NCBI RefSeq assembly: GCF_013839445.1
Contig: NZ_JACDIT010000001.1
Span: forward strand, 186,001 to 250,000
Source: Chthonobacter albigriseus
GTDB lineage: Bacteria; Pseudomonadota; Alphaproteobacteria; Rhizobiales; Pleomorphomonadaceae
Length of the DNA stretch: 64,000 bases
Direction of reading: 5' to 3'
A program made the position numbers and the translations under genes. The notes under the pieces were generated by a model, which was given only the letters and a program-made list of their open reading frames with translations, did no database searches and had not been told where the DNA came from. Of this stretch, positions 3,775 through 50,250 are shown piece by piece. Within the stretch, counting starts at the first letter, position 1. The number at the start of each line of letters is the position of its first letter.

Positions 3775-4929
3775 TCAGCGGCCCCGGTAGAACCGGGCCG
3801 GCACGAACGGCAGCGCGACCACCTCGGCGGCGAGCGGCTTGCCACGAACCATCAGGGTCACCGGCGTGCCGGCGGCGGCGTGGGCGGCGGCGACGTAGCC
3901 CATGGCGACGGGCCCGTTCACCGTCGGGCCGAAGCCGCCCGAGGTGACCGTGCCGATCGGCTGCCCGTCGCGGGAGAGGATCTCCGTGCCCTCGCGCGCG
4001 GGCGCCCTGCCCTCGGGCCGGATGCCGACGCGGAGGCGCGGCGCGCCGTTGGCGATCTGCTCGCGGATGACATGATCGCCGGGAAAGCCACCCTCCTCGC
4101 GGCGACGCTTCTGGATCGACCAGAGCAGGTTCGCTTCCACCGGCGTGGTCGCCTGGTCGATGTCGTGGCCGTAAAGGCAGAGCCCGCCCTCAAGGCGCAG
4201 GCTGTCGCGGGCGCCGAGGCCGATCGGCTTCACGTCGTCGTCGGCGACGAGGGCGTCCCAAAGCGCGACGGCATTGGTGTTCCGGACCGAAATTTCGAAG
4301 CCGTCCTCGCCGGTGTAGCCGGAGCGAGTCACCGAGCAGTCGATGCCGGCGATGGTCGCCTGTGAAGCGGTCATGAACGGCCAGTCGGCGACGTCCGCAC
4401 CGAGGCGGACCAGCACGTCGACGGCCTTCGGACCTTGGAGGGCGAGGAGAGCGCGGTCGTCCGCCCGCTGCAGCCGGACGCCGGCGGGGAGGCTTGCCTC
4501 CAGATGGGCGAAATCGTCGTCCTTGCAGGCTGCGTTGACGATCAGCATCAGGGTGCCGTCATCGGCCGCATCCGGCGAGCGGCTGACCATGAGGTCGTCG
4601 AGGATGCCGCCCTGCGGGTTCAGGAACTGGGTGTAGCGCTGACGGCCGCGGCCGAGCGCACGGATATCCGCCGGCACGAGCCGCTCCAGGGCGGCAGCGG
4701 TCGTGTCGTGGTCGGGGCCGATCAGGAAGGCCTGGCCCATGTGGCTGACGTCGAACAGGCCGGCGGCGGCGCGGGTGTGGGCGTGTTCTGCGATGATGCC
4801 CTCGTATTGCACCGGCATGGAATAGCCGGCGAAGGGCACCATGCGCGCGCCGAGGGCGACGTGGCGATCGTAGAGCGGGGTGTAACGAAGGGGCGTCTCG
4901 GTCGCGGCTTGCGCGTGGTCGACCATCAT
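3775..4929 (-). CDS. gcvT: Glycine cleavage system T protein (aminomethyltransferase)
   Basis: GcvT transfers the methylene group from aminomethyl-GcvH to tetrahydrofolate and releases ammonia. The chosen start is the ATGATG at 4929 (or 4926); GGAG lies 3 to 6 bases upstream, giving 383-384 residues. The open frame continues upstream through the riboswitch, but that part is RNA, not protein. Family features are the folate-binding N-terminal region ([21 protein letters not shown]), the internal [10 protein letters not shown] motif and a C-terminal barrel. It is the first gene of the operon and directly follows the tandem glycine riboswitch. Confidence 0.97.
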
Positions 4930-43272: not shown

Positions 43273-43731
43273 CTAGCTCCGGCGCTGTGCGAAGAACCCC
43301 TTCAACAGCGCCGCCGCTTCGCTTTCGGCGAGCCCGGAGTAGACCTCCGGGGCGTGGTGGCAGGTGGGGCTGGCGTAGAGCCGCACGCCGTGATCCACCG
43401 CGCCGCCCTTCGGGTCGCCCGCTCCATAATAGAGCCGGCGGATGCGCGCGAAGGAGATCGCCGCCGCGCACATCGGGCACGGCTCCAGCGTCACGTAGAG
43501 ATCGCAACCGACCAGCCGCTCGCTGCCCCGGCGCGCCGCCGCCTCGCGGATCGCCAGCAATTCGGCATGGGCGGTGGGGTCGCGCGCCTCCAGCGTGCGA
43601 TTGCCGGCGCGGGCGATCTCCTGCCCGTCGAGCACCACGACGGCGCCGACCGGAACCTCGCCGCGGGCCGCCGCCGAGCGCGCCTCGGCGAGCGCGATCT
43701 CCATCCAGCCGGAGGCGGTGGCATCCGTCAC
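43273..43731 (-). CDS. tadA: tRNA-specific adenosine deaminase
   Basis: TadA converts A34 to inosine in the anticodon of tRNA-Arg(ACG). The 152-residue deaminase has zinc ligands His55 (HAE, with Glu57 as proton shuttle), Cys85 and Cys88 ([10 protein letters not shown]). Its C-terminal helix [19 protein letters not shown] matches the family. It is divergent from the pseudouridine synthase gene with 43 bases between starts, an arrangement common in Hyphomicrobiales. Confidence 0.95.
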
Positions 43732-43774
43732 GATCCTCGTTCCTTCCCTCGCGTTTCCCTGCTATTGGCGTGCC

Positions 43775-45715
43775 ATGAAGACACCCAAGCAAACAACCCC
43801 CGCCGAACCGGAACGGATCGCCAAGGTTATGGCGCGCGCCGGCCTCTGCTCGCGCCGCGACGCGGAGGTGTGGATCGCCGACGGCCGCGTCAACGTCAAC
43901 GGCCGCGTGCTGGACACGCCGGCCTTCACCGTCAAGCCCGACGACGTGGTGCTGGTGGACGGCAAGCCGCTGCCGACGCGCGAGCGGACCCGGCTGTGGC
44001 TCTACCACAAGCCGCGCGGCCTGGTGACCACCAACCGCGACCCCGAAGGCCGCCAGACGGTGTTCGAGACGCTGCCGGAAACGCTGCCGCGCGTGGTGTC
44101 TGTGGGCCGGCTCGACATCAATACGGAAGGTCTGCTGCTGCTCACCAACGACGGCGGGCTCGCCCGGGTGCTGGAGCTGCCCGCCACCGGCTGGCTCCGC
44201 CGCTACCGGGTGCGCGCGCATGGCGACATCGACCAGCCGGCGCTCGACAAGCTGCGCGACGGCGTCGCCATCGATGGCATCCTCTACGGCGCGATCGAGG
44301 CCACCTTCGACCGCCGTCAGGGCGACAACGTCTGGCTCACGGTCGGTCTGCGCGAAGGCAAGAACCGGGAGGTGAAGAACATCCTCGGCTACCTCGGCCT
44401 GGACGTGACCAGGCTGATCCGCGTCTCCTTCGGGCCGTTCCAGCTGGGCGACCTTGCCGAGGGCGCCATCTCCGAGGTGCCGCGCCGCATCCTGCGCGAC
44501 CAGCTGGGCGACCGTCTGGTAGAGGAGGCGGGTGCCGACTTCGAAGCGCGCGAGGACGACCGCAAGCCGCAGATGCCGGTGCGCACGGCGGGCATCGCCG
44601 AAGCGCCGCGCGGGGACCGCACCGTCGTCAAGCGCGAGCGCCGGACGCCGGACGCTCGCTCGACGCGGCGGCGGCACGAGGCGGATCTCGCCCACGAGGA
44701 GGAGGCCCGGTCGGCCGAGCCGCGGCGCGCGCCGAACGCTTCGCGGTCCAAGCTCGCCGTCAAGGCCGGCCTGCCGACACGGCCCGCCAAGGCTTCCGCC
44801 CGTCAGGCGACCCGCGCAGAGATCGCCGCCGCCAAGCGCGTCCGGCGCAGCGACGACACGGTGGTCGAGCGCCGCGAGCGCAGCCCGCGCGACGAGGCGC
44901 CGGTTGCGCGCCCCCCGCGCGCCGAGAGGCCCGTCCGCTCCGCCGAAGACCGTGCGGCGCGGCCGGCCCGCCCTCCCCGACGGGAGGACCGCGGCCCCGA
45001 TGCCCGGCAGACGCGCCCGGCCCGCGACGATCGCCCCCGGCGGGAGGAACGCCCCGCGCAGGAGGGACGGCCAGCGCGTGCGCAGGATCCTCGGTCCGCG
45101 CGGAGTGATCGGCCGGGCCGCTCCCGAACCGACGATCGCCCCGCCCGCGCCGATCGGCCGGCCCGCGACGATCGCCCCGCCCGTTCCGAGCGGCCGTCCG
45201 ATGGACGGCCCGCGCGGCCGCATGCCGGTGCCGCCCGCCCGGAAAGACCGGCTGGCGGTCGTTCGGACGTCCGAACCGATCGCAACACCCGGCCGGACCG
45301 CGACCGCCCGCCCCGGCGCGCCGACGAGCGGCCGGAGCGCGCTCCCCGCGCCGCGGATGACCGCACCGGTCGCCCGCCACGGCGAACGGAGGATCGACCC
45401 GATCGTGCACCGCGAACGCGCGAGGATCGTCCGCCGAGGCGGACGGAGGATCGCACTGATCGGCCTGCGCGCCGCACCGACGAGCGCCCGCCCCGGCGCG
45501 CCGACGACCGTCCGGAGCGGGCACCGCGCTCGCGCGACGATCGTCCGCCCGCCCGCGCCGAGCGCACGGCGGGTGCGCGCCCTCCCCGGGACGGCGATCG
45601 ACCGCGCGGCGCCGGCGGTCCGGGCGGGCCGAAGGGACCGCGCGGACCCAAGGGTCCCCGCGGTGGCAAGGGCGGACCGAAGGCGGGGGGCCGCAGTGCG
45701 GATCGTCGGCGGTAG
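43775..45715 (+). CDS. rRNA pseudouridine synthase (RluB/RsuA family) with very long R/D/P-rich tail
   Basis: The 646-residue protein converts a large-subunit rRNA uridine to pseudouridine. Residues 10-60 form an S4 domain ([20 protein letters not shown]). The catalytic domain (about 75-245) has [18 protein letters not shown] with catalytic Asp114 and the closing [15 protein letters not shown]. From about residue 250 to 646 the sequence is low-complexity, built from short units such as [19 protein letters not shown] and RTEDRTDRP, ending in glycine- and lysine-rich repeats. The tail adds nearly 400 residues to the usual size and should be disordered and RNA-binding. The start at 43775 suits the S4 domain. 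It overlaps rsmD by 20 bases. Confidence 0.93.
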
Positions 45716-46259
45716 GTTCCGGGGCAGCGCGCTCGCCGGTCCGCCAGCGGGATCGATGGCGATCCGGCCGACGTCGGACCGCCTTCGCGAAAGCCTGTTC
45801 AACATCCTGGAGCACGGCCAGACGCGCGTCCTCGACGGTGCGCGCGTGATCGATCTCTTCGCCGGAACGGGCGCCCTCGGCTTCGAGGCGATGAGCCGCG
45901 GCGCCAAGGCCTGCCTCTTCGTGGAGGAGGCGGCCGAGGCGCGCGGCCTGATCCGCCACAACCAGGAGAGCCTCGGGCTGACCGGAACCACGCGCCTGTT
46001 CCGGCGCGACGCCACCCGGATGGGCCCGGTCGGAACGGCCGAGCCCTACACTCTCGCCTTTCTTGATCCACCCTACGGCAAGGGGCTTGCCGAGCCCGCG
46101 CTCGCCAGCCTCGCCGCAGGCGGCTGGCTGGCGCCGGGCGCCGTCGTCGTGGTCGAGGAGACAGCCAAAGCGGAGATCGGCTGGCCCGAAGGCTTCAGCG
46201 TCACCGACCGGCGCGACTACGGCGAAACGGCCGTCCACTTCGCGCGCTTCGCGGTGTAG
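45696..46259 (+). CDS. rsmD: 16S rRNA (guanine966-N2)-methyltransferase
   Basis: RsmD methylates G966 of 16S rRNA. The 187-residue protein starts at a GTG at 45696 ([16 protein letters not shown]), overlapping the pseudouridine synthase stop by 20 bases, with a G-rich stretch in place of a ribosome site. The SAM-binding motif is [19 protein letters not shown] and the catalytic motif is [10 protein letters not shown]. The pair of rRNA-modification genes is conserved in the order. Confidence 0.94.
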
Positions 46260-46279
46260 ACGTCTCCCCGCCTCGCTCG

Positions 46280-48264
46280 TCAGGCGGCGCGCATCTCGCC
46301 GACGAAGGTGTTGACCTCGCGATTGAGCCTTGCCGCCTGCTCGTTCAGGGTCTGGGAGAGCTGCATCAGGCTGGCCGCCGACGACCCGGTCATCCCGGCC
46401 GCCTGCCGAACCACGGCGACAGCGGCCGACACCTCGCGTGTCGAACCGGCGGCTTGCGCCACGGAGGCCGCGATGTCGCCGGTCACGGCCGACTGGCTCT
46501 GGATGCCGGAGACGACCTCGCGGGTCATGTCCGTACCGCGGCCGATCGACTCGCCGATGCGCTGGAAGGTGGTCGACGTCTTGGCCGTCGCGGATCGGAT
46601 CTCGTTGACCTTCGCCTGGATGTCGCCGGTCGCCTTGGCCGTTTCCTGCGCGAGTTCCTTGACCTCCGCGGCGACGATGGCGAAGCCCCGTCCGGCTTCG
46701 CCGGCGCGCGCGGCCTCGATGGTGGCGTTGAGCGCAAGCAGATTGGTCTGGGCGGCGATCTCGGTGATCAGCGCCATAACGCCGTCGATGCGGTCGGCGG
46801 CCGTAACCAGCGCCAGGACGTCCTGGCGAGCGTGATCGGCGTTGTCGCGGGCTTCCTCCAGGAACTCGGAGGCCTGCCCGACCTGGCCGACCAGATTGCC
46901 GACTGCGCTGGCCAGTTCATCCGTCGCCTGGGCGATGCCGGTGATGCTGCCGGCGGCCTGATCTGCGGAATGGTTGACCATGGCGGCCTGCTGATTGGCT
47001 TCCTCGGCCATATCCGTCAGGCCGTTGGCCGCCGTCGCCACCTCTTCGGCGACGCCGGTCATGCCCTCGACCAGCGTGGCGGCACGCGCCAGGAACTGGT
47101 CCACGGCGATCGCCTTGCGCCGGTCCGCGCCGGCTTGAATCTCCTGCTGGGCCTCCCGCTCGCGTCGGAACCGCTCCATCTCCGCCAACGTATCGCGGAG
47201 AGGGCGAAGCGGCGGGCCATGGTGCCGATCTCGTTGCGCAGGTCCTGGTAGGGGATCGCCGTGTCCAGTTCGCCGCGTCCGAGCGCGACCAGCGTTTCGG
47301 CGACACTCGTGACCTGCCGGGCGATCGACCGGGCGATCACCAGCACCATCAGCGCCGCAGCGGCCAGCGTGACCAGCACGGCGATCGCCTCGATCATGGC
47401 TACGCTGAGGAGGCCGTCGACGCGGGCCGCCACCAGCCGGTCGAACTCGGCATTGGCCCCGCTCCAGAGCGTGCGCAGACCTTCCTGCGTCTCATGCTCG
47501 GCCGGTTCGATCACAGCGGCGCCGTCCGCCAGAGGCTTTCCGTCCATAACCGCCGCGACAAAGGGAGACGACGTCGCGAGGAAGGCTTCGGACGCCGACA
47601 CCGCCGCTTCCATCGGCGCGCGGATCGGCGCGGCAAGGCTGCCGTCCGGATTGCCGTCGATGGCCAGCGCCAGCGACCGGCGCAGATCGGCCAGACCGGA
47701 CCGGTAGTTCGCATCCGCCGCGATCACCGAGCGGACGACGTCGTGCGACGGCGGACCGGCGGTGGCATGGGCGGCCTCGACAGCCTGGTGAATCTGGTCG
47801 GCCATGTCGGCCATCAGCGGGATGCGGAAGACCAGAGCGTCCATCAGGTAGTAGGTGTCGAGATTGGGATCCAAGGTCATGTTGGAATGGTCGGATATGG
47901 CCTGGATCAGGACCTTGCCCGTGGACAGCTGGAGCCGGAGGTCGCCACTCTTGATGGCGGCCACGAACTGGTCGATGGGCTCGGTGTCGCCGCGGGCCTG
48001 CCGAACCCATTCGCGCAAGCCTGCCGATTCCAACCGGCCCAGCGAGCCCTGCAGTTCAGGCGTCAGCTGACCTTCCTGCGTCAGCGCCATCGAGTAGGTG
48101 TTCCAGACGTCGGCCAGCAGACGTGATCCTTCCCGTTCCCGCGACGAGAAATCCACCGTGCCAGCGACCTGGATGATCAGAAGATAGCCCAAGAGCACGA
48201 TCGGCACGGCCATGACCGCACCCACGACGCCGATTCGCGTCGCAAAACGCATGCGTGAAAGCAT
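46280..48264 (-). pseudogene. Methyl-accepting chemotaxis protein, broken by a single-base frameshift
   Basis: Two frames together make one chemoreceptor. From 48264 one frame encodes TM1 (IGVVGAVMAVPIVLLGYLLII), a periplasmic sensor of about 250 residues, TM2 ([21 protein letters not shown]) and the start of HAMP ([12 protein letters not shown]). It then runs out of phase near 47199. The other frame continues the HAMP ([12 protein letters not shown]) and carries the signalling domain, including the tip region [20 protein letters not shown], ending at 46280. Adding one T (minus strand) near 47199 restores [11 protein letters not shown] and a 661-residue protein. This could be a real inactivation or a sequencing error. 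The intact protein would work with CheY and CheZ nearby. Confidence 0.88.
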
Positions 48265-48399
48265 GGAAACCCTCCCCCCGGAAGCTTCGTCTTCGCAACA
48301 TATGCGTAAAAGACTGCGCTATTTACGAGGTAGGAGTGTTAAAGTTGCATGAGAGAGAGGGTTTATAATCGTGCCCGGCTTTCACGGAAACAAATCGGT

Positions 48400-50250
48400 T
48401 CAGCGGCGCCCGAACAGGCGCTCGATGTCCTGCAGCTTCAGTTCGATGAACGTCGGGCGTCCGTGGTTGCACTGTCCGGCGGCGGGGGTCGCCTCCATTT
48501 CCCGCAGAAGTGCGTCCATTTCCTCCGGTTTCAGGCGTCGGCCCGCCCGCACGGAGCCGTGACAGGCCATGGTCGCGGCGACATGATCGAGCCGCTCGCG
48601 CAGGCGGGTCGCCTGATCCCACTCGGCCAGGTCATCCGCAATGTCACGGACCAGTCCGCCGACGTCCGTGCGGCCGAGCAGCGCCGGGACTTCCCGGATC
48701 GCGACGGCGCCGGGGCCGAAGCTCTCCAGCACCAGGCCGAGCTCGGCGAGTTCTTCGGCGCGCTCCAGAAGCCGGTCGGCATCCTCCTCCGGCAGGTCGA
48801 CGATCTCCGGGATCAGCATCAGCTGGGTGGCGACGCGGCCCTCCAGTTCCTTCTTCAGCCGCTCGTAGACGAGCCGCTCATGGGCGGCGTGCTGGTCGAC
48901 GATGACCAGTCCCTCCGCGGTCTGGGCGACGATGTAGGTCTCGTGGATCTGCGCGCGCGGTGCGCCGAGCGGTCGGGCGGTGCGGTCGGGCGGCAGGTCG
49001 GCCGCGTTCGCGCGGCTGTCGGCCGAAACGGAATTCGTCACCGCCTCGAAGCTCGCCTGCGCATTGTCGGAGAAGCCGAAGGGCCGCGGCGGGGGGGCGT
49101 CGTCCTCCAGCGGACGGTCCGGCGCGTTGCGCCAGTCGAAGGCCGCCGGCCGCTCCGCAAAGGACGCGCTCGACGACCAGGTCTGCCGCCGGGTTGCACT
49201 GAGGACGCTGTCGGCAAGGGCGTCCAGCGTCGCACCGGCATGCGTGGTGGAGGCCTTGGCGGTCACCGCCGCATGCGCCTGCCGAAGCGCGCCGACGATC
49301 AGGCCGCGCACCAGCCCGGGGTCGCGGAAGCGTACATCGGCCTTCGACGGGTGGACGTTGACGTCGACCTCGTGCGGGTCGAGGTCGACGAAGAGCACCG
49401 CGGCGGGGAAGCGGTCGCGGGCCATCACGTCCGCATAGCCGGCCCGGATGGCGCCGAGCAGCAGCTTGTCGCGCACCGGGCGGCCGTTGACGAAAACGAA
49501 CTGGCTGAGCGCGTTGGCCTTCTGGAAGGTGCCGAGGCCGGCGAGGCCGGTCAGGCGCACGCCTTCGCGCAGGGCATCCAGGGGGATGGCGTTCTCGGTG
49601 AATTCGCGGCCCATCACCTGTGCGATCCGCTCGACGAAGGCCCCAGCACCGACCCCGGGCAGGTCGAGCGGCGAGCGGTCGGACCCCGACAGCTGGAAGC
49701 GCACGGCCGGGTGCGCGAGCGCTAGGCGCTTGACGATCTCCGTCACGGCGCCGGCCTCGGCACGGTCGGACTTCAGGAACTTGAGGCGAGCCGGCGTCGC
49801 GAAGAAGAGGTTGCGAACCTCGATCCGGGTGCCCCTGGTCAATCCCACCGGTCGGGCGTCGCCCTTCTCGCCGCCGGAGACGGAGAGCGTCCAGCCGTGC
49901 GGTTCGCTCTCGTGGCGGGTCTCGATCGCCAGTTCCGCCACCGAGCCGATCGAGGGAAGCGCCTCGCCCCGGAACCCGAGCGTGCGGATGTCGAGGAGGT
50001 CGTCCTCCTGGAGCTTGGAGGTGCAGTGCCGCTCCACCGCCAGGAGGAGGTCGGCGCGGCTCATGCCGCAGCCGTCGTCGGTGACTCGGATCAGCGTCTT
50101 GCCGCCGCCGGCCGTCACGACCTCGACGCGGCGGGCGCCGGCGTCGATGGCGTTCTCGACGAGTTCCTTCACCACGCTCGCCGGCCGTTCCACGACCTCG
50201 CCGGCGGCGATGCGGTTGATGGTGCCTTCTGAAAGTTGACGGACGGCCAT
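48400..50250 (-). CDS. mutL: DNA mismatch repair protein MutL
   Basis: MutL couples MutS mismatch detection to strand removal. The 616-residue protein has the GHKL ATPase ([36 protein letters not shown]). The C-terminal domain has the endonuclease motif [12 protein letters not shown], so this MutL should nick DNA itself, as expected where MutH is lacking. It is divergent from the HAD gene at 50360, and its stop lies 135 bases beyond the chemoreceptor start. Confidence 0.97.

Follow-up and report, generated by a model that had tools for sequence, protein, structure and literature searches.

The window, a 64,000-nucleotide stretch of a contig from Chthonobacter albigriseus, carries on its minus strand (48264-46280) one chemoreceptor that, according to the listing of open reading frames (ORFs), is spread over two reading frames. 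The first frame begins with an ATG at 48264, preceded by a GGGGGGAGGG stretch, read from the sequence, that is suited to ribosome binding. It is open for 401 codons and stops at a TGA at 47061-47059. The second frame overlaps the first near the break and terminates at 46280; one of its ATG codons (47062-47060) overlaps the TGA that closes the first frame.

The 5′ piece of the receptor, in the first frame (47203-48264, minus strand, 354 residues), comprises an N-terminal membrane helix, a periplasmic helical sensor, a second membrane helix and a partial HAMP domain, the membrane helices having been identified by eye from the sequence. The HAMP domain (PF00672, 47206-47340, minus strand) has its C-terminal end cut by the break: the Pfam match spans residues 309-353 and model positions 1-44 of 53 (E = 3.7e-6, 27.6 bits versus a cut-off of 25). 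Beyond this point the first frame runs out of register for 47 residues (47059-47202, minus strand) until the TGA. The 3′ piece, in the second frame (46280-47200, minus strand), contains the post-HAMP linker, the methylation helices and the signalling tip, with the MCP signalling domain (PF00015) at 46400-46858, minus strand, residues 116-268 of the translated piece (E = 2.8e-31, 109.1 bits versus a cut-off of 34.6). HAMP was seen in the first frame only and MCPsignal in the second only. A search of the receptor against NCBIfam returned nothing above any family cut-off, and scanning for promoters and terminators turned up a single promoter-like site, which lies on the opposite strand, and two terminator-like sites where 1.3 would be expected. 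In domain order, HAMP, signalling tip and a membrane helix on either side of a periplasmic sensor, the locus resembles membrane chemoreceptors of the HAMP/MCP type; it differs from them in that its halves lie in different frames and in that the sensor has no Pfam match.

A continuous frame from sensor to signalling domain is absent here, and the change of frame lies between 47203 and 47200. It was located with a profile of 684 positions built from 20 relatives, chosen from 25 loci (L032-L048 and L091-L098), in all 20 of which a single ORF matches both halves. Of the 18 stop-to-stop pieces into which the three minus-strand frames of 46000-48500 divide, only two matched this profile: the first-frame 5′ piece, corresponding to profile positions 23-376 (229.9 bits), and the second-frame 3′ piece, corresponding to positions 378-684 (268.9 bits). 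By residue numbering, 47203 is the last base of position 376 and 47200 the first of position 378, which leaves two bases (47202-47201) for one profile position, that is, one base short of the relatives' register. Frame 0 has the highest third-position GC content as far as the 150-base stretch centred at about 47215; from the following stretch, centred at about 47140, frame 2 leads. The first lead of frame 2 over frame 0 is small (0.86 versus 0.82), and the switch is localised to about 75 bases. A previous sequence-only reading had the two frames joining at about 47199, which agrees with the profile break to within a few bases, and its claim that the chemoreceptor lacks one base in the HAMP region is borne out by the profile register and the GC switch. 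The short T run that it placed at the site is not there: the surroundings of the junction hold no homopolymer longer than CCC, and no tandem repeats were found at 47000-47400.

Comparison with relatives, which the same reading had suggested as a check, was carried beyond the 20 profiled genes to a survey of 105 related loci (L032-L048, L091-L098 and L139-L218), a set that includes duplicates (L202 and L032 are one place) and excludes L049-L060, which are mostly short matches around HAMP. A change of frame at the junction was found in none of the 105. A single ORF runs from the sensor through the signalling domain in 84 loci. Nineteen match the profile only up to positions 375-460, with an ORF that continues in frame for at least 177 residues and without a signalling match beyond the sensor-side match; our reading is that their output domains are of other kinds. 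The remaining two, both from metagenome-assembled genomes, have an in-frame stop, with the pieces on either side sharing one frame: in L171 the stop (3802-3805) falls between profile positions 375 and 496, and in L185 (3343-3346) at about position 291-295.

The sensor half itself is divergent. Its best matches elsewhere reach at most 32% identity over most of its length, and shorter matches, mostly around HAMP, reach up to 41%. The first scan of named genomes returned no close orthologue, and searches of 60 relatives, of 397 genomes from the order and of 385 from the class gave no match exceeding 32% identity across most of this half. A second, alignment-based scan yielded 80 named loci at 20-35% identity. 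In the same-genus genome G001 the match lies at 148888-149868.

The sensor domain (47412-48169, minus strand) bears a conserved S-N-L-x-L-D-P-D-L-D-S-Y-Y-x-M-D stretch, also seen in L139-L218, and is widespread in bacteria, with at least 549 confirmed stretches. HAMP is the only Pfam family matched by more than two of 28 members of the sensor family, among the 25 families listed for them. Structure prediction for residues 1-353 gave an all-helical model with a mean pLDDT of 90.8. Its best structural neighbour by VIA-align was NasR (4akk_A; Z 17.1, rmsd 3.7, 238 residues aligned), the next entry having a Z of 12.4, whereas Foldseek returned nothing at an E value of 0.001 or below. NasR is a nitrate-sensing antiterminator. 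In the VIA-align comparison the predicted fold of the sensor resembles that of the NasR NIT domain (4akk, PF08376), to which the sensor has no sequence match. Pfam applied to the 5′ protein at E values up to 1 reported HAMP only and no NIT domain; PF08376 is absent among the 25 families just mentioned and has no match in the whole genome of the strain; and a profile-profile comparison (hhalign) of sensor and NIT gave a probability of 0.8%. On these sequence grounds (Pfam, genome search and hhalign), membership of the NIT family was dropped. The residues invariant in the sensor, which include S127, N128, L131, D132, P133, D136, Y139 and D142, bear little likeness to the set conserved throughout 12 NIT domains (E8, R9, G10, R75, E130, G133, R136, W218 and I226). 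E175 and R176 are given as predicted pocket residues of NasR (PMC7496416). A sequence search of solved structures matched mostly HAMP domains.

The receptor sits between two genes taken to be an rsmD-like gene and mutL, the latter being its upstream neighbour on the same strand (48400-50250, minus strand) and 81% identical to the copy in G001. Beside the rsmD-like gene, a presumed rluB-like gene (43574-45715, plus strand) is extended at its C-terminal end by a long tail with abundant arginine, aspartate and proline. Chthonobacter is a member of the Pleomorphomonadaceae, and mutL was located in 19 other genomes of this family; the sensor half was found in none of them at distances up to about 1.5 kb from this gene, the flank examined being shorter in G015 and G003. 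It was also absent beside mutL in larger stretches of four genomes (G001, G002, G004 and G006). In G004 the interval between the rsmD-like gene and mutL carries a different ORF, which by eye reads as a response-regulator-type protein. The spacing of the two flanking genes varies in the family, from close in G004 to several kb in G006, and in stretches of G001 (L085, G001:C3:272000-283000) and G002 they are not adjacent. The receptor looks like an accessory gene, because it was not found beside mutL in the family genomes searched and its best matches elsewhere are at most 32% identical over most of the sensor half. The genome of the strain has 30 signalling-domain matches, two of them in one ORF, and hence 29 receptor genes. 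Viewing of the other 28 revealed none recognised as cut like the present one; one of them, L029, is a short frame (359 residues) with a partial match.

The reading that we favour, with a probability of about 0.7, is that a recent one-base deletion at the end of HAMP has inactivated this accessory receptor. The gene encodes a chemoreceptor (methyl-accepting chemotaxis protein), a surface sensor by which bacteria direct their swimming, and its host is an alphaproteobacterium congeneric with Chthonobacter rhizosphaerae. Translation from 48264 would then yield a membrane protein with the sensor and most of HAMP, followed by 47 foreign residues and a stop. Such a product would lack the CheA- and CheW-binding portion and could not couple to the kinase, so that the receptor would presumably be silent. 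No further stop or frameshift is seen in either half of the receptor, which makes it probable that the deletion is recent. Losing this receptor would be cheap, since it is one of 29 whose genes were found in the genome and other family members did not show it at this position. Accessory chemoreceptor genes commonly decay and, barring a sequencing error, the loss of one base appears to be an ordinary kind of gene decay. Among the three causes put forward in the sequence-only reading, recent inactivation is the best supported.

A sequencing or assembly error, under which the living strain would have a whole gene and a base would be missing only from the public assembly, is an unlikely alternative of appreciable weight. 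In its favour, the indel is single, with no other lesion in the receptor gene; the codon signal persists in both halves; and the signalling half is strongly conserved, as judged by the profile. On the other hand, the junction is neither a homopolymer nor a repeat. The assembly consists of 20 contigs, that of the window being 1.8 Mb, and such long contigs speak for good assembly quality. Other genes along the contig also argue against an error. We set 800 kb of the window's contig against an equal length of G001 and queried it with the G001 ORFs; 171 of 1,856 matched well, covering 158,444 bases, a sample weighted to conserved genes, whereas accessory genes decay more often. This strict comparison, run in one direction, gave two candidate frameshifts among the 171 ORFs, and neither survived inspection. 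For one, an ORF on the opposite strand matches at 86% in a single piece; for the other, the real gene is one piece at 86% and the preceding part is covered by an opposite-strand ORF. A looser comparison of 400 kb with 400 kb produced multi-frame matches, four in one direction and eight in the other, none of which we read as a frameshift: either another ORF, mostly on the opposite strand, matches better per residue, or the gene is whole. Two of them reflect a tandem duplication in the relative. As a control, 30 single-base deletions were planted in a copy, and the same detector recovered 28. Because it found these and no frameshift in the 171 ORFs survived inspection, the conserved part of the assembly must contain few frameshifts.

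Phase variation or programmed frameshifting, yielding some full-length receptor, has a very slight chance. Frameshifting of the −1 kind occurs in bacteria, and it is the kind of shift that would be required here. The junction, however, has no homopolymer of more than three bases and, by eye, no slippery heptamer; there are no tandem repeats at the site; no known RNA family in Rfam matched at 46000-48600; and the relatives keep a single frame, in the 20 profiled as in the 105 surveyed. Since the site has no repeat tract, both mechanisms are judged unlikely from the sequence, and the suggestion of phase variation at a T run, made in the sequence-only reading, is not upheld. Slightly less remote, and still quite improbable, is a functional split receptor, in which sensor-HAMP and signalling proteins would be made separately, the second by reinitiation at the ATG at 47062. 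A GAGGG lies just before the ATGA in which the stop and the in-frame ATG overlap, and the lack of a second lesion would fit a gene still selected as two pieces. However, that GAGGG lies, we infer, nearer to the ATG than is usual, and the same split was not found in the related loci surveyed. The overlap was also checked in intact relatives: 68 loci spanned the junction and 66 could be mapped, and in 16 of these 66 the first stop in the same register overlaps an ATG, which is the chance level; in 31 of 66 it overlaps any of ATG, GTG or TTG. The overlap at 47062 was therefore dropped as a meaningful signal.

A precedent for a receptor in two separately readable parts is Tlp7 of Campylobacter jejuni (Cj0952c/Cj0951c). 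Of 31 strains carrying tlp7, 8 are reported to have it as two ORFs, an arrangement stated to be functional (PMC3461409). Another paper reports that mutating tlp7 in a two-gene strain abolished taxis to formic acid (formate taxis), but also calls unknown what this strain difference in tlp7 means for function (PMC4444964). The interruption of Tlp7 is a stop codon, occurs in those 8 of 31 strains and leaves parts reported to be functional, whereas that described here is a frameshift in one assembly. Since Tlp7 has been reported to be functional as two ORFs, a working split receptor is not absurd, slim as its chances are. By analogy, the locus might conceivably be a two-protein chemoreceptor in the making, coupled by stop and start at 47062, and so a second case beside Tlp7; we regard this as a long shot. 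The locus would gain in importance if both pieces proved functional, as a receptor could then be cut inside HAMP and still signal.

Our literature search found, by title, no paper on a frameshifted bacterial receptor and none joining Chthonobacter with chemotaxis. The inactivation of one receptor gene that we favour would be of little significance by itself. Automatic annotation may show the locus as two partial genes.
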